DNA of 64,000 nt from an uncultured Thiohalocapsa sp. (GTDB lineage Bacteria > Pseudomonadota > Gammaproteobacteria > Chromatiales > Chromatiaceae), in NCBI RefSeq assembly GCF_913063425.1, contig NZ_CAJXYK010000008.1, positions 1 through 64,000 on the forward strand, in the 5' to 3' direction. Each line of letters begins with the position of its first letter. The stretch's first letter is position 1. The translations under genes and the position numbers were made by a program. Under the pieces are notes generated by a model. It was given only the letters and a program-made list of their open reading frames with translations. It was not told the DNA's origin and ran no database searches. Positions 4,199-16,779 of the stretch are shown in pieces.

Positions 4199-4609
4199 TC
4201 AGCTGAATGCGCCGCCCTCGCCGTTGGTGTAGTCGAAGGTGATTTCCTCGCCGGGCGCGATGCGGCGCGCCGCGTAGAGATCGAAGCCGTCGAAGGCGGC
4301 ATTGGGGCTGGCACTGTGGTTCAGCCAGCGCAGCAGGTTGCGCCCGCTGCGCCCCGTCCAGTGCTCGCCGTCGGTGCTGACCCAGAGCACGTAGGTGCCG
4401 TTGCGGCGCGCGGCGGGACCGGCGTAAGTGCCGATGTAGTCACCGGGCGCGAAGGCGATGCGCGCGAAGCAGCCCTGGCCGTGAATGGGCGACGGACCGC
4501 GGCGGACGCGCTCGCGCAGGCGCCCCGGACCTGCACCGCCAGCGCCACCGCCAGCTGCGCCGGCGCCGGTTGCCGGGCCGTCCTCCACCCCTGCCCCGGG
4601 CTCGGGCAT
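4199..4609 (-). CDS. Small SET-domain protein (predicted protein-lysine methyltransferase)
   Basis: The 136-residue product is a minimal SET domain. It carries PIHGQGCFA with GDYIGTYAG near the start, RNLLRWLNHSASPNA (SAM-binding NHS..PN at 97-103) and GEEITFDYT (120-128). These are the cofactor-binding and catalytic segments of SET lysine methyltransferases; pre-SET and post-SET cysteine clusters are lacking. The first 35 residues are glycine- and alanine-rich and probably disordered. Its ATG overlaps the tex stop by one base (TGATG), so its translation is coupled to tex. A TTG one codon upstream is a less likely start. The target is unknown; a ribosomal or nucleoid protein is plausible. A 6-bp-arm hairpin (4088-4102) lies downstream but lacks a T-run. 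Confidence 0.85.
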   Translation of the reverse strand: MPEPGAGVEDGPATGAGAAGGGAGGAGPGRLRERVRRGPSPIHGQGCFARIAFAPGDYIGTYAGPAARRNGTYVLWVSTDGEHWTGRSGRNLLRWLNHSASPNAAFDGFDLYAARRIAPGEEITFDYTNGEGGAFS

Positions 4610-6951
4610 CAATCCCGGCGTGCGGCCTCGAAGGCGGCCGCAAGCGCGCCCCGGGGCGCCTGGTCCTGCTCGCTGCGTCCGGCACGACCCTGCCGGCGCT
4701 TGCCGCCGTCCGCCGGGCGCGGCTGCCCGCCGCCGGGGGCTGCCCGGTCGGCCTTGCCGCGCGCCTGTCCCGGCCCGGTTTCCGCCGGCGCATCATCCAG
4801 TCGCATGCTGAGCCCGATGCGCCGCCGCTCCAGGTCCACGGCCAGCACCTTGACCTTCACCACCTGTCCCGACTGCACCACCTGGTGCGGGTCCTTCACG
4901 AAGCGGTCCGCGAGCTTCGAGATGTGCACCAGGCCGTCCTGATGCACGCCGATGTCCACGAAGGCCCCGAAGTTGGTGACATTGGTCACCGTGCCCTCCA
5001 ACACCATGCCGGGCCTGAGGTCCTCCGGCGCCTCGATGCCCTCCTTCAGCGCTGCTGTGGCGAAGGCGGGGCGCGGGTCACGGCCGGGCTTCTCCAGCTC
5101 CACCAGGATGTCGCGCACCGTGGGTGTGCCAAACACCGCATCGGCATACTCCCCGGCGGAGAGCGTGCGCAGGATTTTGCGGTCGCCCATGAGCGCCGTG
5201 ACAGGCTTGCCGGTGCCCGCGACGATGCGTCGCACCACCGGATAGGCCTCGGGGTGCACGGCGGAGGCGTCCAGGGGCTCGTCGCCGTCGCGGATGCGCA
5301 GGAAGCCCGCGCACTGCTGAAACGCCTTGTCGCCGAGCCGCGGCACGTCGAGCAGTTGGGCGCGGTTGCGAAACGGCCCCCGCTGGTCGCGGTGCTGCAC
5401 CAGATTCTCGGCCAGGGTCGCCGAGATGCCCGACACCCGCGCAAGCAGTGGTGCGGAGGCCGTATTCAGGTCCACGCCCACTGCGTTCACGCAGTCCTCC
5501 ACCACCGTGTCCAGCGAGCGCGCCAGCCCGGTCTGGTTCACGTCGTGCTGGTATTGGCCGACGCCGATGGACTTGGGGTCGATCTTCACCAGCTCCGCCA
5601 GGGGGTCCTGCAGCCGGCGGGCAATGGACACCGCCCCGCGCAGGGAGACGTCCAGCTGCGGCAGCTCGTGGGAGGCGTACTCCGAGGCCGAATAGACCGA
5701 GGCGCCCGCCTCGCTCACCATGACTCCGGTAATGCCGAGCTCCGGGTGGCGCTTGGCGAGATCGCGCACCAGCCGGTCCGTCTCCCGCGAGGCGGTGCCG
5801 TTGCCGATGCTGACCAGCCTGACGCCGTGCTCGCGGCAGAGCTTGGCGAGGGTGGCGATGGTCGCATCCCACTGGTTGCGGGGCGCATGCGGGAAGACGC
5901 TGTCGGTGGCCAGCACGCGGCCGGTGCCGTCCACCACGGCCACCTTGACGCCGGTGCGAAGCCCAGGGTCGAGACCCATGGTGGGCACACGGCCCGCGGG
6001 GGCGGCCATCAGCAGTGCGCGCAGATTGGTGGCGAAGACGCGGATGGCCTCGGCCTCTGCCGCCTCCAGCAGGCGCCCTTTCAGGTCCAGGTCGAGCCGG
6101 GTCAGGAGCTTGATGCGCCAGGCCTTGCGGGCGGTCTCCACCAGCCAGGCGTCGCCCGGGCGGCCGCGGTCGGCGATGCCCAGCTGCACGGCCACGCGGG
6201 CGCGCAGCGGCGCGTCTGCATCGGGCGCGTCGCCGGCGGCGAGCTCCAGGCTCAGCACACCCTGGTTACGACCCCGGAACAGCGCCAGCGCGCGGTGGGA
6301 CGGAATCCTGTGGATGGGCTCGGCGTGGTCGAAATAGTCGGAGAACTTGGCGCCCGTGCCCTCCTGGCCCGGCAGGACCCGGGACTTGAGGACGCCGCGC
6401 TGCCACAGCGTCTCGCGCAGCTCGCCCACCAGCTCCGGGTCCTCCGCAGCCCGCTCCATCAGGATCTGCCGGGCGCCCTCCAGGGCCGCCGCGGCGTCGG
6501 CCACACCCTGCTCCGGACGCACGAAGTCCGCCGCCTGCGCCTCGGGGGCAAGCTCCGGCCTGGCCAGCAGCGCGTCCGCCAGCGGCCCGAGGCCCGCCTC
6601 CCGGGCCATCTGCGCCTTGGTGCGCCGCTTGGGCCGATACGGCAGGTAGAGGTCTTCCAGGCGCTGCTTGCTGTCGGCGGCCTGCACGGCCTCGCGCAGG
6701 GTGTCGCTCAGCTTGCCCTGCTCCTCCAGGCTCTTCAGCACCGTCGCCCGGCGGTCTTCCAGCTCCCGCAGATAGCCGAGGCGCTGCTCCAGCAGGCGCA
6801 GCTGGGCGTCGTCCAGGCCGCCGGTGGCCTCCTTGCGGTAACGGGCGATGAAGGGGACGGTGGCGCCGCCGTCGAGCAGGCCCACGGCCGCCTCCACCTG
6901 CGCGGCGCGGACGGAGAGCTCTTCAGAAATGACTTGAACGATGGATGGCAT
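4609..6951 (-). CDS. tex: RNA-binding transcription accessory protein Tex
   Basis: Tex is a cytoplasmic nucleic-acid-binding protein linked to transcription and virulence-gene control, related to the core of Spt6. The 780-residue length is normal. In order: the N-terminal helical region with [15 protein letters not shown] and [14 protein letters not shown]; a YqgF/RNase H-like domain ([20 protein letters not shown], near residue 330); a helix-hairpin-helix region ([19 protein letters not shown] onward); and an S1 domain ([17 protein letters not shown], near 655-725). The tail is basic and Gly/Arg/Pro-rich. The start MPSIVQ has AAAGG just upstream and matches family starts; 81 codons of open frame above it are spurious. 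It leads a two-gene unit with the SET-domain gene. Confidence 0.96.
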
Positions 6952-9895: not shown

Positions 9896-10717
9896 ATGGA
9901 CAGCATCCAGATTGCCCTGCTCGCCTTCGTGCAGGGGCTCACCGAATTCCTGCCCATCTCCAGCTCCGGGCATCTGATCCTGACACCCCTGTTGTTCGGC
10001 TACGAGCTCCAGGACCTCTCCTTCGACGTCGCCGTGCACCTGGGCACCCTCGCCGCCGTCCTGCTGTACTTCCGGCGCGACCTCGTGGCCATGGGGACGG
10101 CCATGCTCGCCGGGGCACGCGGGGGCGCCGGCCCCGAGCAGCGCAAGGACGCCCGGCTCGGCTGGATGGTGATCATCGCCACCCTGCCCGTGCTGGTGCT
10201 GGGGCTGCCGCTGAAGCAGGTGCTGGAGGTGCTGCGCAGCGACGACACGCTCATCGCGCTGGTGATTGCCGGCACCACCATCGGCTTCGGGCTGCTCCTG
10301 TGGTACGCCGATGTGCGCGGCAGCCGCCGCCTGGACGAGTACGCCATCAACTGGGTGGCGGCGCTGTTCATCGGCCTGTTCCAGGCCATCGCCATCATCC
10401 CCGGCACCTCCCGCTCGGGCATCACCATGACGGCGGGGCTTTTCATCGGACTCACGCGGCACGCCGCCTCCCGCTTCTCCTTTCTGCTGGCCATTCCGAC
10501 CATCCTGCTCGCGGGTGCTGTCGCCACCAAGGATCTGCTTCAGGCCACCGGCGCCATTGACTGGACGGCCCTGGTCATGGGCGCCCTGCTGTCCTTCATC
10601 GTCGCTTATCTCACCATCCACTTCTTCCTGGCGTTCATCGAGCGCGTCAGCATGCTGCCCTTCGTGCTCTACCGGCTGCTGCTGGGTGGGGTCATTCTGT
10701 GGCTGGTGCTGATGTGA
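9896..10717 (+). CDS. uppP: Undecaprenyl-diphosphatase (BacA/UppP family)
   Basis: This integral membrane enzyme removes a phosphate from undecaprenyl diphosphate so the lipid carrier of peptidoglycan synthesis can be reused; extra copies give bacitracin resistance. The 273-residue length is typical. Family motifs are clear: AFVQGLTEFLPISSSGHL at the start (the conserved Glu-rich catalytic segment) and IIPGTSRSGITMTAGL near residue 160-180 (PGxSRSG motif). Several hydrophobic helices follow. The 3' end overlaps the end of the converging antitoxin-like gene by 26 bases. The upstream kinase gene ends 86 bases earlier. Confidence 0.95.
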   Translation: MDSIQIALLAFVQGLTEFLPISSSGHLILTPLLFGYELQDLSFDVAVHLGTLAAVLLYFRRDLVAMGTAMLAGARGGAGPEQRKDARLGWMVIIATLPVLVLGLPLKQVLEVLRSDDTLIALVIAGTTIGFGLLLWYADVRGSRRLDEYAINWVAALFIGLFQAIAIIPGTSRSGITMTAGLFIGLTRHAASRFSFLLAIPTILLAGAVATKDLLQATGAIDWTALVMGALLSFIVAYLTIHFFLAFIERVSMLPFVLYRLLLGGVILWLVLM

Positions 10718-11108
10718 GCGCTGGTTCGACGGCGCCGGGTCCGATGCACCTGGGCTCAGGCGGCGGGGATTCGACAGCCATGACCGGCCCCTGCACCGAG
10801 CGCACCTGCTCAGCGGGGATGCCGCCGGTGTCGCGGTTTCGGGTGTGCATCCAGTGCCGGATGGCCGCCGCATCGCCGCCCACCAGGGCATAGAGACTTC
10901 GGTAACAGCGAATCAGCAGCAGCGCCAGCTCCCCGGCCTTACTGTCGGGGTCCAGACCACGGCTGAACGCGGTGCGCTCGCGCCCGACGATCTCGGCCAG
11001 TTGCTGCTGCGACAGGCCGAGTCCGTTGCCGGCGTTGAGCAATGCTTTGGTCAAGACTGCCCGTAGGTCGGGAGGCGCGACGGGAGCGGCGTGTACGGGG
11101 GCGTGCAT
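10692..11108 (-). CDS. Xre/MbcA/ParS toxin-binding-domain protein (antitoxin-like, no toxin partner seen)
   Basis: The 138-residue product matches the Xre/MbcA/ParS (DUF2384) antitoxin family: an N-terminal helix-turn-helix (LTKALLNAGNGLGLSQQQLAEIVGRERTAF, in part) and the C-terminal toxin-binding region with ELALLLIRCYRSLYALVGGD and HWMHTRNRDTGG. Such proteins usually pair with a RES-domain toxin that destroys NAD. None is adjacent: the flanks are uppP and an N-formylglutamate amidohydrolase-family gene. The last 30 residues leave the family pattern after VMAVES and are proline-rich. The gene has its own promoter with a palindrome over the start point, as for autorepressors. It could be an orphan regulator or the remnant of a toxin-antitoxin pair. 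Confidence 0.8.
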   Translation of the reverse strand: MHAPVHAAPVAPPDLRAVLTKALLNAGNGLGLSQQQLAEIVGRERTAFSRGLDPDSKAGELALLLIRCYRSLYALVGGDAAAIRHWMHTRNRDTGGIPAEQVRSVQGPVMAVESPPPEPRCIGPGAVEPALTSAPATE

Positions 11109-11130
11109 TTCGGGAAAGCCCGGGATTAAC

Positions 11131-11176
11131 CGTTGCCTACGCAACGTATAGGTCAGGCTTGTGGTATTTGCAACGT
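11131..11176 (-). promoter_or_regulatory. Promoter and operator-like palindrome of the antitoxin-like gene
   Basis: Read leftward, a -35 TTGCAA (11168-11173) and -10 TATACG (11145-11150) are separated by exactly 17 bases. A perfect palindrome CGTTGC-CTAC-GCAACG (11131-11146) covers the start point and touches the -10. Its half-site GCAACGT (11141-11147) recurs at 11170-11176 over the -35, about three helical turns away. This fits repression by the helix-turn-helix protein encoded immediately downstream. Confidence 0.6.
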
Positions 11177-11892
11177 CAAGGGCGATGGCCGTGAGCCACA
11201 TCCAGCCACTGGGTCAGCGCCGCGAGCACCCGCCGGCCCTTCTCGGCGTCGCTGGCGAAGGGGGCGCGGCTCAGCTCGATCATGACCCAGGGCAGCTCCG
11301 CGGCATGGGCACGGACGATATAACCGCCGCTGAATGGCCGGTTCAGGGTCACCTCGCCGCCGAAGTGCCGCTGGAAGCAGTCCACGAGCCCCTCGGCCCA
11401 GTCCGGCGGGCAGGCGCCGTTGCCGTCGCCGATGCAGACCTCAGGGCGCGGCTGGCCGCAGTCGGGGCCCACCGGCGGGCCGGCGGCGGCCATGGTGTGG
11501 CAGTCCACCCCGAGCAGCACGCCGCTGCCGGCAAGCTCGGTGAGCTTGTGGTGATAGGGCCGGTGCCAGCGCTGGAGCAGGGTCTCCACCGTGGCGGGCG
11601 GCAGCGGCGCGCGGTAGACCGGCTGGTCCCAACAGGTGTGCGTCTTCACGACGCCGTCCTTGCGCAGGTCGCCCTCGGCACGGTTCAGGTCCACGAAGGC
11701 GCGGGCGATGTCGGTGGTGACATAGTGCGCCACCCGGTCGCGCAGCACGGCGTAGATGGCGGCGGCACCCTCGTCGCCGTCACGCGCGATCTGTGCCGGC
11801 GTGAGCAGGCTCAGGCGGGCGACCTCGTCGGGCACCAGGAGCCCGGCATGGGGCACGGAGATCAGGAGCGGCAGCCGGTCCACGCCGAGCAC
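11176..11892 (-). CDS. N-formylglutamate amidohydrolase family protein
   Basis: The family hydrolyses N-formyl-L-glutamate to formate and glutamate in histidine degradation, but many members lie outside hut clusters with unknown substrates. The 238-residue protein keeps the family blocks ISVPHAGLLVP, DLNRAEGDLRK, LLGVDCHTM, GDGNG and SGGYIVRAH, which supply the metal and carboxylate-binding residues. It has no signal peptide and should act in the cytoplasm. No hut gene is nearby. It follows the gamma-glutamyltransferase gene by six bases, so both are surely co-transcribed; a shared glutamyl-type substrate is a reasonable inference. The start is GTG 11892, with another GTG three codons later equally possible. 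Confidence 0.82.
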   Translation of the reverse strand: MLGVDRLPLLISVPHAGLLVPDEVARLSLLTPAQIARDGDEGAAAIYAVLRDRVAHYVTTDIARAFVDLNRAEGDLRKDGVVKTHTCWDQPVYRAPLPPATVETLLQRWHRPYHHKLTELAGSGVLLGVDCHTMAAAGPPVGPDCGQPRPEVCIGDGNGACPPDWAEGLVDCFQRHFGGEVTLNRPFSGGYIVRAHAAELPWVMIELSRAPFASDAEKGRRVLAALTQWLDVAHGHRP

Positions 11893-11898
11893 TCAGCG

Positions 11899-13578
11899 TC
11901 AGTCGGCGGGGCCGGCGGCGGAGCCGTCACGGCGCGGGTCGGCGACGCCGATGCAGGCGTCACCCTCGCGCAGCACCAGCTGCACGCAGCCGAGGTAGAA
12001 GCTGTAGGGGTCGCGTGGATCGACCTCGAAGCCATGCCGCGCCAGCTCCCGGGGGATGTCGTCGCGCATGCGCGCCGCCTCCAGGGCGACCTTGCCGGGG
12101 AGGCTGCAATGCAGCCGCGGCGCTTCCACGGCGTCCAGCGGCGTCGCGCCGCGCTCCAGGCGCAAGAGCACCTGCAGGATGGCGGAGACGATGCGCTCGC
12201 TGCCCGGCGAGCCGATGGCAAGCCAGGGCCTGCTGCCGCGGAAGACGATGGTGGGCGCCACCGACGCCCAGGGCACGGCGTTGGGCCTCAGATAGTAGGG
12301 ATGGGCGATGTCCTGGTACTCGAAGGCGCTTATGTAATTGTTGTAGATGAAGCCGAGCGTCGGGCTCACGGTGAAGGAGCCGTAGACGCGCTCGATGGAC
12401 TGGGTGAGCGCCACGACGTTGCCGGCGGCGTCCATGACGGACAGATGCGTGGTTTCGCCGCTGTGGCCCCGCCGGCGCCGGGCGATGCTGCCGCCCTCCC
12501 CCTTCAGCAGCCGGGCCTTGATACGCCGGGCCACGCGCTTGGCGTAATCCAGATGCGTGATGTCCTCGCCCAGCTCCAGCTCCTGGGCGAACAGCGCCGG
12601 GTCCTCCGGGCGGTCAGCGCGGTCCAGGTTGGCCCGGCGAATGACATGCGCCAGCAGCAGTGCGCCGCGCGGGTTGTCCGGGTCCCGCGCCGCCGCGGGA
12701 AACTGCTCCAGCAGGTTCAGCGCCTCGATCAGCGTACGCCCGGCGCCGGGGGGCGGGAAGGTGAACACCCGCTTGTGCGCGAAGTGGGTCGCCAGGGGGC
12801 GGCGCTCCGTGGGCCAGGGGATCTGCGCCAGATCGTCGTCCCGCAGCAGACCGTCGTTCGCCACCATGTCGGCATGGATGGCCCGGGCGATGTCCCCCTG
12901 ATAGAAATCCTCGACGCCATGCTCGGCCAGGCGCCCCAGCGTCGCGGCCAGCGTCGGCTGGCGGAAGCGCGCACCGATGGGATAGGGCGTCCTGCCGTCC
13001 TTCAGGAAGAAGGCGCCGGCGGAGTGGTTTTTGAGGTGCTTGAGCTCCCGGCGCGTCAGGTGATGCTGGAGCGGCGAGATGCGATACCCCTCCTCCGCCA
13101 GGCGAATGGCCGGAGCCAGCACATCGTGGAGGGTCTTGGTGCCGTAGTGCTTCAGCGCATAGGCCAGCACCGCCGGCGTGCTCGGCACCGTGGTGGCGCG
13201 GTGCCCGCGCAGGCGCGCCGTGCGCGCCAGCTCGCCGGGCGGGGTGCGGTTCGGCGCCCGGGTGGCCCCGTCCAGGCAGAACTTGCGGCCCTCCGCCGAC
13301 AGGTGCAGCAGCAGCATGGTCTGGCCGCCGAGGCCGCAGGCGGCGGGCTCCACCACGCACAGCGCAAAGGCGGCCGCCACCGCCGCGTCCACGGCATTGC
13401 CGCCGGCGGCGAGCATGGCCGCACCGGCTTCGCTTGCGTGGTAATGCTGGGTGGAGACCATGCCGCGGCGGGAGACGCTCACCCGCTGCGGGTGCACCAC
13501 CCGGTGGTCGCCGGGGTCCGGCGGCGGCCCTTCCGGCGGTGTAACCTCCGGCTCCACGGCCCTGGTGCGAGCGCTCAT
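11899..13578 (-). CDS. Gamma-glutamyltransferase/hydrolase family protein, no signal peptide
   Basis: The enzyme is a self-cleaving Ntn-hydrolase that removes or transfers gamma-glutamyl groups. The 559-residue protein has the large-subunit start (GMVSTQHYHASEAGAAML, GGNAVDAAVAAAFAL, GGQTMLLLH) and the maturation site GETTHLSVMD, where Thr376 is the predicted nucleophile of the small subunit. Later GSPGSERIV is the GSPGG-like glutamate-binding segment. Unlike periplasmic Ggt of E. coli it lacks an export signal, so it should act in the cytoplasm. The start at 13578 is eight bases after the ligase stop and has GAGGGCGG upstream; a start 27 bases earlier would overlap that gene. It lies in the ligase-GGT-amidohydrolase unit. 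Confidence 0.88.
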   Translation of the reverse strand: MSARTRAVEPEVTPPEGPPPDPGDHRVVHPQRVSVSRRGMVSTQHYHASEAGAAMLAAGGNAVDAAVAAAFALCVVEPAACGLGGQTMLLLHLSAEGRKFCLDGATRAPNRTPPGELARTARLRGHRATTVPSTPAVLAYALKHYGTKTLHDVLAPAIRLAEEGYRISPLQHHLTRRELKHLKNHSAGAFFLKDGRTPYPIGARFRQPTLAATLGRLAEHGVEDFYQGDIARAIHADMVANDGLLRDDDLAQIPWPTERRPLATHFAHKRVFTFPPPGAGRTLIEALNLLEQFPAAARDPDNPRGALLLAHVIRRANLDRADRPEDPALFAQELELGEDITHLDYAKRVARRIKARLLKGEGGSIARRRRGHSGETTHLSVMDAAGNVVALTQSIERVYGSFTVSPTLGFIYNNYISAFEYQDIAHPYYLRPNAVPWASVAPTIVFRGSRPWLAIGSPGSERIVSAILQVLLRLERGATPLDAVEAPRLHCSLPGKVALEAARMRDDIPRELARHGFEVDPRDPYSFYLGCVQLVLREGDACIGVADPRRDGSAAGPAD

Positions 13579-13586
13579 GTCCGCCC

Positions 13587-15731
13587 TCAGCCGTCCAGCA
13601 GGCACTGCATCAGCAGCAGGGTGCGCTGCACCAGGCTGATGCGCGAGACGGCCTCGTCACTGGTGAAGAGATCGCTCGCCACCGGTCCCAGACCGCACAC
13701 CACGGGCACCCGATCGGGCACCAGGCCGGCAGCGGAGGGCCACAGCGAGGAATCCGTCCCCAGCGGGATGTCCCACTCGGCAGCGATGTCCTTCAGGCCC
13801 TGTACCAGGGGCACATTGATCTTGCGCTCCGGCATGGGTGGCCGATCCGAGACCATCACCAGGTCCCAGTGCACGCCGCCGCCGCGCAGGATGGCGCGCA
13901 TGGCCCGATCCAGCGCGGCCACCTGGACCTGGTCCGGATAAGACACCTGCAGCCCGATGCGCACGCGGTGCGGCAGCCGCATGGGGAAGGCGTCGGTGGC
14001 GATGTCCGACACGGACACGGCAACCCGTGTCTTGCGGTCCGTGAGGCCGGTGAGCTCGTCGAGCTTGCGGTAGAGCACGCGCATGACTTCCGCACTGCGG
14101 CCGGCCTGTCCCAGCCTGAGCGCCTTACCCTCCACCCGCAGCCGGTAGCGGCGCTGGCCGCGGCGGGAGGTGATGATGCGATCGCCGGCGTTGCCGGGGT
14201 TCAGCACCAGCACCCGGCCGGCATCGGCGCAGGCGCGGCGCAGCACCTCCGTGCTCTCCTCGCAGTCCCGGCCCTCGTCGGCGTAGATGGCGACGCCGAG
14301 CTTGGTGCGGTTCAGCCGTCGCACGTGCTTCACGGCGCGAAGCGCCATTTCCAGCATGGCCAGGGATGCCCGCGACGACCCCACCCCCTCGCCATAGAGC
14401 CATTCCGGGTCGCGGTGGAAGTGCTCCATGCCGAGCTGCGGGTTCACGGGCACGTCCAGGTGGCCGACCACCAGCGTACCGCCGGCGAGCCCGGCGGGGC
14501 TCTCCCAGGTCCAGATGTCGCGGTCGTCGGTGAGCTCGCGCACCAGGCGCAGACCGATGTCGGTCATCTGCTCGGTGAGACGCTGCGCGGCGAGGCGGAT
14601 GCCCACGGGGTCGTCCGAGCGGCTGCCCACACCGGTCCACTCCTCCAGCAGCTTCTCGAGCCGGTCGCGGCGCTCGGTGAGGAAGGCGAAGGCGGCGTGC
14701 TTGGGGTCGGAGCGCCGCCGGCTCAGGTCCGGCGGGTTCGGCGTGCCGAAATAGCGCGCCGCGGCGACCTCCACCAGGCGCACCACCAGGGCGTCGAAGT
14801 CGAGCCCCACGGCCTCGGCGCCGGCCACATAGGAGCCGTGCTCGCCAAGGCTCGGCAGGCTGTTGATCTCCAGGACATAGAGGTTGCCCGCGGCGTCCAC
14901 ACGCATGTCCACGCGGGCGCAGTCGTAGCAGCCCAGCACATGGAAGGCCTGGAGGGCCGTGGCCTTGGCCTTCGCCGCCAGCGCAGGCTCGATGTCCGCC
15001 GGGCACTGCACCCGCACCTCGCGCCCGGAGGTGTGCTTCTTGTCCTCCATGGTGTAGATCTGCGGCCCGCCCTCGCCGAAGATGAGCTCTGCCGGCGGGA
15101 AGGCCTCCAGCGCCGTGCCGTTGCCCAGCAGGCCGACATTGATCTCCCGGCCTTCGATATAGCGCTCGGCGAGCACCGGCTGGTCGAACTGCTCGAAGAT
15201 CACACCGGCCGCCTCGCGCAGCTCGGCCTCGTCATGGACGATGCGGATGCCGAAGGAGACAGCCTCGTTCTTGGGCTTGACGATGAGCGGAAAGGCCAGG
15301 TCGGGCAGCTCGAACCCCGGGGCATCCAGCACCGCGAACTCAGGCGTCGGCACACCGCGCTGGGCGAACAGCATCTTGGCGACCACCTTGTCCAGCGCCA
15401 GCGAGTGCGCCAGCGGCCCGGAGCCCACGTAGGGGACACCGACCATCTCCAGAATCCCCGGTACGTGCGTATAGCGCGCCTGGCCCTGAATGCCGTAGGA
15501 GAGATTGAAGGCCATGCCGGGGCGCTCGCCCTTCAGCGCCCGGGGCATGAACTCCTCCAGATTGTCGATGAGGTCCTTGTCGCCCTCCAGCGCGATGGCC
15601 TGGTGGCCGGCCTTCTTGAGCGCGTTGACGATGCGGTTGATGGCCTTGATGCCGTACTTCTCGCGGTTCGGCTGCCCGAACAGATTGATGACCTTCTGCG
15701 ACTCTCTGTTGTAGATGACGGCGACCTTCAT
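13587..15731 (-). CDS. D-Ala-D-Ala ligase-like ATP-grasp protein fused to a degenerate M20-peptidase-like domain
   Basis: This 714-residue protein has two parts. Residues 1 to about 325 are a Ddl-like ATP-grasp ligase: FNLSYGIQG, PYVGSGPLAHSLALDK, FPLIVKPKNE, LAERYIEGREINV and CARVDMRV...LEINSLPSLGEH, with metal-binding Asp275, Glu288 and Asn290. Residues about 405-714 resemble M20 peptidases in outline (GTLVVGHLDVP, LYGEGVGSS, AIYADEGRDCEES, LNPGNAGDR, and a closing GLGPVASDLFTSDE). His424, Asp426 and Glu486 remain, but positions normally holding metal ligands read Ser452/453, Gly487, Asn511 and Phe689. The ligase looks active; the second domain probably binds but does not cut. It heads the unit with GGT and the amidohydrolase. 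Substrates are unknown; it should not replace Ddl of peptidoglycan synthesis. Confidence 0.8.
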   Translation of the reverse strand: MKVAVIYNRESQKVINLFGQPNREKYGIKAINRIVNALKKAGHQAIALEGDKDLIDNLEEFMPRALKGERPGMAFNLSYGIQGQARYTHVPGILEMVGVPYVGSGPLAHSLALDKVVAKMLFAQRGVPTPEFAVLDAPGFELPDLAFPLIVKPKNEAVSFGIRIVHDEAELREAAGVIFEQFDQPVLAERYIEGREINVGLLGNGTALEAFPPAELIFGEGGPQIYTMEDKKHTSGREVRVQCPADIEPALAAKAKATALQAFHVLGCYDCARVDMRVDAAGNLYVLEINSLPSLGEHGSYVAGAEAVGLDFDALVVRLVEVAAARYFGTPNPPDLSRRRSDPKHAAFAFLTERRDRLEKLLEEWTGVGSRSDDPVGIRLAAQRLTEQMTDIGLRLVRELTDDRDIWTWESPAGLAGGTLVVGHLDVPVNPQLGMEHFHRDPEWLYGEGVGSSRASLAMLEMALRAVKHVRRLNRTKLGVAIYADEGRDCEESTEVLRRACADAGRVLVLNPGNAGDRIITSRRGQRRYRLRVEGKALRLGQAGRSAEVMRVLYRKLDELTGLTDRKTRVAVSVSDIATDAFPMRLPHRVRIGLQVSYPDQVQVAALDRAMRAILRGGGVHWDLVMVSDRPPMPERKINVPLVQGLKDIAAEWDIPLGTDSSLWPSAAGLVPDRVPVVCGLGPVASDLFTSDEAVSRISLVQRTLLLMQCLLDG

Positions 15732-15993
15732 GGGGCCTCGCTGTGGGATTCGGCGCCTGCGCCCGGGCCGGGCTGCTCACTGGCTGCGAGCATACACCCT
15801 GCATGCGCAACGGGTGGGCGCGTGGACGCCGGACGCGCAAGGCAGCGTGGCGGCACGGTGAGCGCCGGCGCGGCGGTGATGATTGCGTGGCGGTGGTCGG
15901 GCCGCGGCAGCGCGGCCTGGCAGGCCCGTGCGCTGGGGCAGGCGCAGCGTCGGCGCACGTCGGCTGCGGTGCTGTGCCGGCGGGCGGTGCGGC

Positions 15994-16779
15994 TCAGGCT
16001 CCGGCCTGCGGCTTCCCGAAGAGGCGGAAGTAATTCTCCGCCGTGAGCTCGGCGACAGCGTCGGCGCTCATCCCGCGCAGCTCGCCGATCTTCTCGGCGA
16101 CATGGCGGACGTACCTGGGCTCGTTCTTCTTGCCGCGGTGCGGGACCGGGGCCAGGTAGGGGGAATCGGTCTCGATGAGGAGGCGCTCCAGCGGCACGCG
16201 GCGGGCGACGTCGCGCAGGGACTCCGCGCTCTTGAAGGTCACGATGCCGGAGAAGGAGATGTAGAAGCCGAGGTCCAGGGCCTGCTCCGCCATCTCCCAG
16301 GTCTCGGTGAAACAGTGCATGACGCCGCCGGCCTGCTCCGCGCCCGCCGCGCGCATGATGGCGATGGTGTCTTCGCGGGCGTCCCGGGTGTGGATGATGA
16401 GCGGCAGGCCGCTCTCGCGGGCGGCGGCGATGTGCACGCGAAAGCGTGCGCGCTGCCAGTCGAGATCGCCCTGGTTGTAGTGATAGTCGAGGCCGGTCTC
16501 GCCGATGGCGACGGCGCCGGTGTCTGCGGCCAGGCGCACCAGCTCCGCGACCGTCGGCTCGCGCGCCGCCTGCTCGTTGGGATGCACGCCCACCGAGATG
16601 GACACGTCCGACTCACCCGCCACCTTGGCGCGCATGGCGTCGAATTCTTCCAGATCGATGCAGACGCAGAGCATGTGCCCCACGCCGCTGTCGCGGATGG
16701 CCGCCATGAGCGCCTGAAAGCTGCCCTCGTAGGGGGTCAGATCGACGCGGTCGAGGTGGCAGTGGGAGTCAACCAGCAT
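15994..16779 (-). CDS. TatD-family metal-dependent hydrolase (YcfH-like)
   Basis: TatD/YcfH proteins are TIM-barrel metallohydrolases with 3'-5' DNase or D-aminoacyl-tRNA deacylase activity. The 261 residues carry the metal ligands in LVDSHCHLD (HxH), GETGLDYH, IIHTRDA, MHCFTE and LIETDSPYLAP. The gene closes the long fab-tmk-holB operon, the usual place of ycfH. I use ATG 16779 (MLVDSHCHLD, the family's usual start); GTG 16797, which overlaps the pilZ stop as GTGA, would add six residues and is a real alternative through coupling. Confidence 0.93.
   Translation of the reverse strand: MLVDSHCHLDRVDLTPYEGSFQALMAAIRDSGVGHMLCVCIDLEEFDAMRAKVAGESDVSISVGVHPNEQAAREPTVAELVRLAADTGAVAIGETGLDYHYNQGDLDWQRARFRVHIAAARESGLPLIIHTRDAREDTIAIMRAAGAEQAGGVMHCFTETWEMAEQALDLGFYISFSGIVTFKSAESLRDVARRVPLERLLIETDSPYLAPVPHRGKKNEPRYVRHVAEKIGELRGMSADAVAELTAENYFRLFGKPQAGA

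Follow-up and report, generated by a model that had tools for sequence, protein, structure and literature searches.

A conserved three-gene unit encoding an ATP-grasp/M20-like fusion, a GGT-family protein and an FGase-family amidohydrolase in Thiohalocapsa and distant bacteria

What might a ligase that forms amide bonds and two enzymes that cleave them do together, when their genes stand almost without gaps on one strand? The question is raised by contig NZ_CAJXYK010000008.1 of an uncultured Thiohalocapsa sp. (assembly GCF_913063425.1; 5.9 Mb, 117 contigs), whose first 64,000 nucleotides (the window) carry an ATP-grasp ligase fused to an M20-like domain, a protein of the gamma-glutamyltransferase (GGT) family and an amidohydrolase of the N-formylglutamate amidohydrolase (FGase) family. 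By following this trio through a genome collection, and by comparing each protein residue by residue with the enzyme whose name it bears, we find that the three genes are kept together across four phyla and propose that they form a tightly packed operon which would make and break an amide-linked amino-acid conjugate in the cytosol, a reading to which we give about an even chance. The coordinates confirm that the genes lie on the same strand, 8 and 6 bases apart, and the family assignments agree with the division into one amide-forming and two amide-cleaving enzymes made in a first-pass annotation of the window. The features are as follows.

13587..15731, minus strand: ATP-grasp ligase fused to M20-like domain, 714 aa, ATG start, first gene of the trio (open reading frame, PF07478, full-length relatives)
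14727..15731, minus strand: ATP-grasp (Ddl-like) domain, residues 1-335 (ATP- and Mg-binding positions preserved, those for the Ddl substrate changed)
13590..14726, minus strand: M20-like domain, residues 336-714 (di-zinc ligands lost, purifying selection)
13579..13586, minus strand: spacer between ligase and GGT genes, 8 nt
11899..13578, minus strand: GGT-family (T3) Ntn hydrolase, 559 aa, ATG start, no signal peptide (Thr376, altered gamma-glutamyl pocket)
11893..11898, minus strand: spacer between GGT and FGase genes, 6 nt
11176..11892, minus strand: FGase-family (PF05013) amidohydrolase, 238 aa, GTG start (with H15, D40, R64, D68, N70, R71, H132 and E206 among its invariant residues)

Conservation and distribution of the trio

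A search of the genome collection with the M20-like half returned 19 loci, and later searches added 12 more ligase-bearing genomes; genomes recurring in several searches were counted once, and scraps in three genomes (G003, G004 and G027) were left out of the resulting 32. The ligase, GGT and FGase genes are contiguous and in conserved order in 27 of these 32, window included, the genomes belonging to Gammaproteobacteria, Desulfobacterota, Planctomycetota and Nitrospinota. The earlier suggestion that the genes act together is thereby strongly supported, and the genes are co-located in relatives, so the proviso that they might not be falls away. Among the first 19 loci the trio has the same order on one strand in 16, with intergenic spacing in that set running mostly from 4-nt overlaps to gaps of up to +24 nt. 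Ten of the later 12 genomes hold it as well (G219, G241, G286, G362, G735, G922, G1139, G1147, G1149 and G1240); the FGase gene of G219 is cut by a contig end, the trio of G1240 is diverged, and that of G922 (locus L095) is without the M20 domain.

The remaining loci are of several kinds. At L038 the sequence ends within the ligase, leaving the trio incomplete there, and in G637 (L101) the ligase is accompanied by two GGT genes on a contig that ends 174 nt later. The ligase of G1083 (L096) has no M20 domain and is followed by a truncated GGT, with no FGase seen. At L029 (Thiomargarita, 4594-6267, plus strand) the ligase has no residues from about 146 to 335, most of the ATP-grasp core, and stands beside neither GGT nor FGase; it is possibly a remnant. 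At L030 (Thiodiazotropha) the ligase is intact and both partners are absent from the locus. A GGT of the trio's clade was sought elsewhere in both genomes, and none was found in that of L030 (best match 272 bits), nor any match at all in that of L029. The lone ligase of L030 is followed by polyamine-type genes (L030:5993-13986), namely a class-I glutamine amidotransferase, an arginase-family gene and an arginine decarboxylase, with a saccharopine-dehydrogenase-like gene further on. In the Desulfobacterota genome G735 (L102:7235-12088, plus strand) the ligase gene is interrupted twice, by stretches of about 1.4 kb, GGT and FGase being intact.

Three genomes hold scraps. Two of the window's own genus (G003 and G004) have only short pieces of the ligase near uppP (L186:7976-8176 and L187:7971-8207), with no GGT or FGase in the stretches fetched, and G027 (L041:7183-7791) retains fragments of the FGase and the M20-like half, GGT being absent. 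These scraps fit an apparent loss of the whole operon.

The trio is rare and patchy in its distribution. The frequencies are rough, since the seed genomes form part of the samples and scoring covered only a portion of the first-look candidates. Within the window's family 5 of 146 genomes hold members of the clade (above 600 bits, other matches reaching at most 66). They also occur in 7 of 343 Planctomycetota, one of them truncated (the eighth genome matched, G195, has a stand-alone M20), in 3 of 297 Desulfobacterota (a fourth, G660, is likewise a stand-alone M20) and in 4 of 24 Nitrospinota. Counted by GGT, they occur in 3 of 321 Gammaproteobacteria (G000, G922 and, in part, G1083) and in 2 of 249 Pseudomonadota (G000 and G1240), each sample having two weaker matches outside the clade, and in 1 of 11 genomes of the order of G922, which is G922 itself. 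The closest relatives are Thiohalocapsa, at 86-94% over the M20-like half in the genome-collection search. In the ligase tree two Desulfobacterium loci nest in an otherwise gammaproteobacterial group (support 99/95), and this nesting points to transfer of the trio between phyla. A plasmid search at E <= 1e-30 yielded no full-length ligase fusion and the ligase domain alone in 13 rhizobial records, and at E <= 1e-70 it found the GGT in two Bradyrhizobium records; viral contigs gave nine GGT matches, seven at 29-37% and two at 56 and 71% over short stretches.

Across 14 loci the distances of ligase domain, M20 domain and GGT correlate with one another (r 0.64-0.77, none of 5000 permutations as high), ligase against GGT giving r 0.77 (0/5000), and all parts of the trio are under purifying selection, with omega of 0.065-0.381 between the window and four relatives.

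Departures from the named enzymes

The ligase domain belongs to PF07478 (residues 122-321; 127.8 bits against a cut-off of 24), misses the NCBIfam cut-off for Ddl (NF002378; 175.1 against 243) and scores under the cut-offs of the 25 families shown among 42 matched. With Ddl it shares the fold, the ATP- and Mg-binding residues and a glutamate: K115, K152, K231, R273, D275, E288 and N290, invariant in 16 of 16 aligned ligases, stand against K97, K144, K215, R255, D257, E270 and N272, which we take to be the ATP/Mg and phosphoryl-transfer residues of Ddl, and E24, also present in all 16, matches a Glu that in Ddl presumably binds the amine of the first amino acid. It differs from Ddl in the places of S150, Y216 and S281, which we take to be the D-Ala pocket of E. 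coli DdlB. The first of these is V/L158 and the last G299, while the second falls, in an alignment that is unsure here, at 232 (K/R/T/V/M) or 233 (H/R/S/N/K) and is never Tyr. It differs as well in its fusion to the M20-like half and in its position in the tree, where a single group with support of 97/94 unites the trio ligases and excludes the six Ddl proteins, one of which is encoded in the mur operon of the window's own genome; the Ddl branch measures 2.45 changes per column, and the deep branching order is uncertain owing to rows with very long branches. To judge from its residues, the trio ligase is not a D-Ala-D-Ala ligase. The window's genome also holds two genes in which 7TM_transglut (PF14402) is fused to a Ddl-like ATP-grasp domain (L040:6530-8614 and L104:5462-7351, both minus strand), each with an HlyD-type gene beside it, and the L040 fusion has 46% identity with the window's ligase domain.

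The C-terminal half of the ligase has no Pfam match at E <= 0.001. A profile built from 16 members detects carboxypeptidase G2 (CPG2) at E 8.9e-14, and the predicted structure of residues 345-714 aligns with 1cg2_A over 348 residues (Z 33.6, rmsd 4.0 A). The ligase model has a mean pLDDT of 69.1, its ATP-grasp half being poorer than its M20 half, which is mostly well predicted, with pLDDT under 50 at 428-452 and 687-693. The M20-like half shares with carboxypeptidase G2 and other M20 peptidases the fold and the place of the catalytic-base Glu (E486, in 16/16), whereas the di-zinc site of those enzymes is lost. We take the zinc ligands of carboxypeptidase G2 to be H112, D141, E176, E200 and H385. 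In all 16 aligned members the bridging Asp (D141) is replaced by S/A/T/L/G, E176 by G and E200 by N/R/T; the last His (H385) gives way to Y/F/N in 15 of the 16, a His standing there in L037 and, outside the set, in L101. The first His (H424 at the H112 place) is kept in 14/16 and D426 in 16/16. The places of D141 and H385 come from alignment with L047, L086 and L087, stand-alone M20 relatives that retain the zinc ligands, H385 lying outside the stretch that the profile match aligns with CPG2. The ATP-grasp/M20-like fusion described in the first-pass annotation thus stands as fold and profile and misleads as the name of an enzyme, three of five ligands being gone throughout and a fourth in 15/16. 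The domain is constrained (omega 0.065-0.249), though absent from the ligases of G922 and G1083, and its residues fit best with a conserved accessory domain that is not a metallopeptidase. Similarity to the M20 of L087 led us to expect an intact zinc site in the diverged G1240 (L157), whose motifs proved degenerate as well.

The second protein is a full-length match to the GGT family (PF01019) that misses the GGT equivalog cut-off (TIGR00066; 329.9 against 357.85). It has in common with GGT a self-cleaving Thr followed by T/S-H: T376 and H378 are present in 16/16, and the small chains of solved GGTs align from residue 376, the corresponding threonine of E. coli GGT being, we assume, T391. It is unlike GGT in having no export signal and a replaced substrate pocket. 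Of the six residues that we take to form the gamma-glutamyl pocket of E. coli GGT (R114, N411, Q430, D433, S462 and S463), five are replaced in all 16 (R114 by A/G/S105, N411 by E396, Q430 by Y415, D433 by A/S418 and S462 by A438), S463 alone being retained. A hydrophobic N-terminus is absent from all 16 aligned GGTs (best 14-residue mean hydropathy at most 0.82, whereas a different GGT of G183, with a signal peptide recognisable by eye, reaches 2.12), which bears out the earlier statement that the protein has no export signal. The label of gamma-glutamyl hydrolase given at the same time is not supported, five of the six pocket side chains being gone. In one profile comparison the trio GGTs reach at least 933 bits against their own profile, and no other GGT of those genomes exceeds 436; elsewhere the lowest score for a full-length member of the clade is 880. 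This range leaves out the diverged G1240, at 620 and 552, and the two GGTs of G637, which were not scored with the profile. On its residues, then, the protein retains the self-cleaving threonine and has lost the gamma-glutamyl pocket.

The third protein lies well within PF05013 (153.3 bits against a cut-off of 28.9) and far below the HutG cut-off (TIGR02017; 68.7 against 278.75). It shares family and fold with HutG, its confident model (mean pLDDT 93.4) being nearest among solved structures to the N-formylglutamate amidohydrolase 2q7s (TM 0.76-0.77) and to Atu2144, 2odf (TM 0.74-0.77); it is set apart from HutG by its score and by its setting, no hut gene being present among the identified genes that flank the trio. 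The DLNR-type motif (D68, N70, R71) is kept in 16/16, and in aspartoacylase-type enzymes this motif presumably binds substrate carboxylates.

Proposed function and its alternatives

In the operon that we propose, the ATP-grasp domain would, from its residues, convert the carboxylate of an amino acid to an acyl phosphate and couple it to an amine. The GGT-family protein, cutting itself before Thr376, may then hydrolyse or transfer an acyl group other than gamma-glutamyl. Because the Arg that presumably holds the alpha-carboxylate (R114) is gone and E396 replaces Asn411, the pocket suggests an acyl group that bears amines and has no free alpha-carboxylate. The FGase-family enzyme, in turn, may take an acyl or aminoacyl group off an amino acid. 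The M20-like half, in which two-zinc binding of the known kind appears to be lost, most likely serves to bind substrate or product or to keep the partners together; it would be dispensable, since two genomes have a ligase without it.

Several observations weigh against this proposal. All activities of the trio are read from residues. Three loci with sufficient contig (L029, L030 and L096) have one or both partners missing, L101 has two GGTs, both divergent, and in G922 the FGase gene is set 227 nt behind the GGT gene. No transporter, regulator or other recurrent neighbour that would name a pathway was found beside the trio. FGase distances correlate weakly with those of the other parts (r 0.26-0.32, with 191-337 of 5000 permutations as high), and the FGase gene may therefore be less tightly bound to the unit.

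A small but appreciable chance remains with protein tagging, of the kind proposed for other ATP-grasp/peptidase operons: the ligase would add amino acids to the end of a protein or peptide, and the hydrolases would trim or remove them. There is a precedent in RimK, an ATP-grasp enzyme which adds glutamates to a ribosomal protein (PMC12239564). RimK and AstE-like genes, moreover, lie near two trio loci, 0.5 kb downstream at L031 and about 6-8 kb upstream at L099. Set against this, no recurrent gene for a target protein is seen beside the trio, and the ligase belongs to the Ddl branch, whose ligases are known to join small molecules.

We consider it quite unlikely that the trio is an arm of a beta-amino-acid pathway, in which ligase and re-tooled GGT would make and break amides of, for example, beta-lysine, the M20-like half being an ex-peptidase of that pathway turned to substrate binding. 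An amine-bearing acyl group free of alpha-carboxylate would suit a pocket that has lost R114 and acquired E396, and related parts do occur beside lysine 2,3-aminomutase. On Bradyrhizobium barranii plasmid NZ_CP088281.1 a gene annotated as lysine 2,3-aminomutase stands ahead of genes for a GGT, a seven-transmembrane (7TM) protein and an ATP-grasp, in that order, GGT and ATP-grasp being direct relatives of the window's (43% and 49% identical). In the planctomycete G183 (L105) genes for 7TM_transglut (PF14402), a KamA-like protein, GGT and GNAT stand together, the KamA-like gene scoring 130 bits to the B. barranii protein and 21.2 to Radical_SAM, below Pfam's 29.5; the KamA-linked GGTs of L105 and L108 share some of the pocket changes, such as the absence of Arg at the R114 place. 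At L086 and L087 the ligand-intact M20 genes (PF01546), relatives of the M20-like domain, adjoin LAM_C/Radical_SAM genes. Such operons thus share homologous ATP-grasp, GGT and M20 parts with the trio, whereas the trio is without their aminomutase and 7TM genes and no FGase was seen in them.

At the level of genomes the link dissolves. KamA lies inside no trio and is adjacent in one locus, that of the Nitrospinota genome G1139 (L161), where a cluster of KamA, two ATP-grasp genes and GNAT converges with the trio and stops 16 nt short of it. In a search whose query was G1139's own protein, of the type found beside two ATP-grasps, KamA of that type (above 500 bits) occurs in 1 of 31 ligase genomes (G1139) against 2 of 49 others (G048 and G1141), and KamA beside ATP-grasps, in the flanks of the matches listed, in 1 of 31 (G1139) against 4 of 49 (G048, G1141, G204 and G205); in that flank listing L163 is the same as L161, and L165 the same as L085. 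Since there is no genome-level association with KamA, the aminomutase link is one of kinship of parts and a single adjacent locus, not of co-occurrence. A KamA elsewhere in trio genomes that would complete the pathway was considered and rejected, the fetched surroundings of KamA in ten trio or ligase genomes being unrelated settings.

The same survey brought other arrangements to light. A cluster of KamA-like and Ddl-like ATP-grasp genes, sometimes with GNAT, recurs in at least three groups (L085:5799-11557, L161:3068-7458, L164, L166 and L168), and we know of no described pathway for it; at L085 two ATP-grasps and a fusion of GNAT with a histone-deacetylase-like part come after KamA. At L087:1891-4659 (minus strand) a protein of 922 aa combines an ATP-grasp domain with a lysine-aminomutase-like radical SAM part, its gene adjoining that of the M20 peptidase. 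On rhizobial plasmids a ligase-type ATP-grasp lies near aspartate decarboxylase, aminomutase and biotin-carboxylase-like genes (L109), or near ectB, a second ATP-grasp and a biotin-carboxylase-like gene (L111), and these two sets may represent an undescribed plasmid-borne small-peptide pathway.

Improbable, too, is the reading closest to the family names, in which the ligase would make a gamma-glutamyl or acyl-glutamate compound, and true gamma-glutamyl and N-formyl- or acyl-glutamate hydrolases would recycle it. Membership in PF01019 and PF05013 and the DLNR-type motif retained in the FGase speak for it; the pocket replaced in 16/16 and the equivalog cut-offs missed for both GGT and HutG speak against. 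We are similarly doubtful that the M20-like domain is still a hydrolase, using one metal or another mechanism. Purifying selection, the constancy of D426 and E486, the survival of H424 in 14/16 and the last His of L037 and L101 would agree with activity, but three zinc-ligand places are substituted in every member and the last His in 15/16, and the domain is missing from L095 and L096. Very improbable is the scavenging of cell-wall peptides, in which the hydrolases would cut murein peptides and the Ddl-like ligase would rebuild a dipeptide: the ligase fold, the nearby uppP and a weak similarity in fold of the FGase model to MpaA (4axv, rank 24) lend it some colour, but among the loci viewed uppP adjoins the trio only in Thiohalocapsa, the genome has its own Ddl in a mur operon (L103), and the Ddl substrate residues are altered in the trio ligase. 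Chance neighbours with unrelated roles, to which the 3 of 32 genomes with ligase and sufficient contig lacking a partner might point, are refuted by a trio kept in 27 of 32 genomes of four phyla while the flanking genes differ, and have next to no likelihood left.

Surroundings of the locus and significance

Upstream of the trio, tatD, pilZ, holB and tmk lie on the same strand, 262 nt separating tatD from the ligase gene; downstream is an Xre/MbcA/ParS-type gene, and on the opposite strand are uppP and a hybrid histidine kinase.

9896-10717, strand opposite to the trio: uppP, cell-wall lipid-carrier gene

The first-pass annotation had noted no hut, glutathione or peptidoglycan genes nearby, which is right for hut among the identified flanks and overlooks uppP on the other strand. 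The Xre/MbcA/ParS-type gene (10692-11108, minus strand) is antitoxin-like, with no RES gene seen adjoining; at the same spot in Thiohalocapsa halophila such a gene is paired with a RES-domain toxin-like gene (L022:10620-10988 and 11025-11780), and the window's copy may therefore be an orphan. Rfam gave no matches at gathering scores between 9500 and 19500, and in 10600-16100 a consensus scan detected no promoter-like site, its single terminator-like site being on the opposite strand and within shuffle expectation.

The earlier remark that no described pathway contains this trio agrees with a literature search of partial coverage, which did not extend to the survey of Iyer et al. (2009) and found no paper describing the trio, nor one uniting GGT, N-formylglutamate amidohydrolase and ATP-grasp, or aminomutase, ATP-grasp and GGT, or Ddl, GGT and N-formylglutamate. 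That survey reportedly treats ATP-grasp/peptidase amidoligase operons, in which an amide ligase stands beside peptidases of unrelated folds, as it does here.

The names D-Ala-D-Ala ligase, GGT and N-formylglutamate amidohydrolase are thus misleading, each protein departing from the named enzyme in a testable way. Because of these departures, and because the three move together across phyla, the trio points to an undescribed small-molecule or peptide pathway, in a unit of three genes small enough for direct expression and assay. The decayed M20 domain fused to the ligase, with ligand-complete relatives near aminomutase-like genes, clearly illustrates how a peptidase can become an accessory domain.

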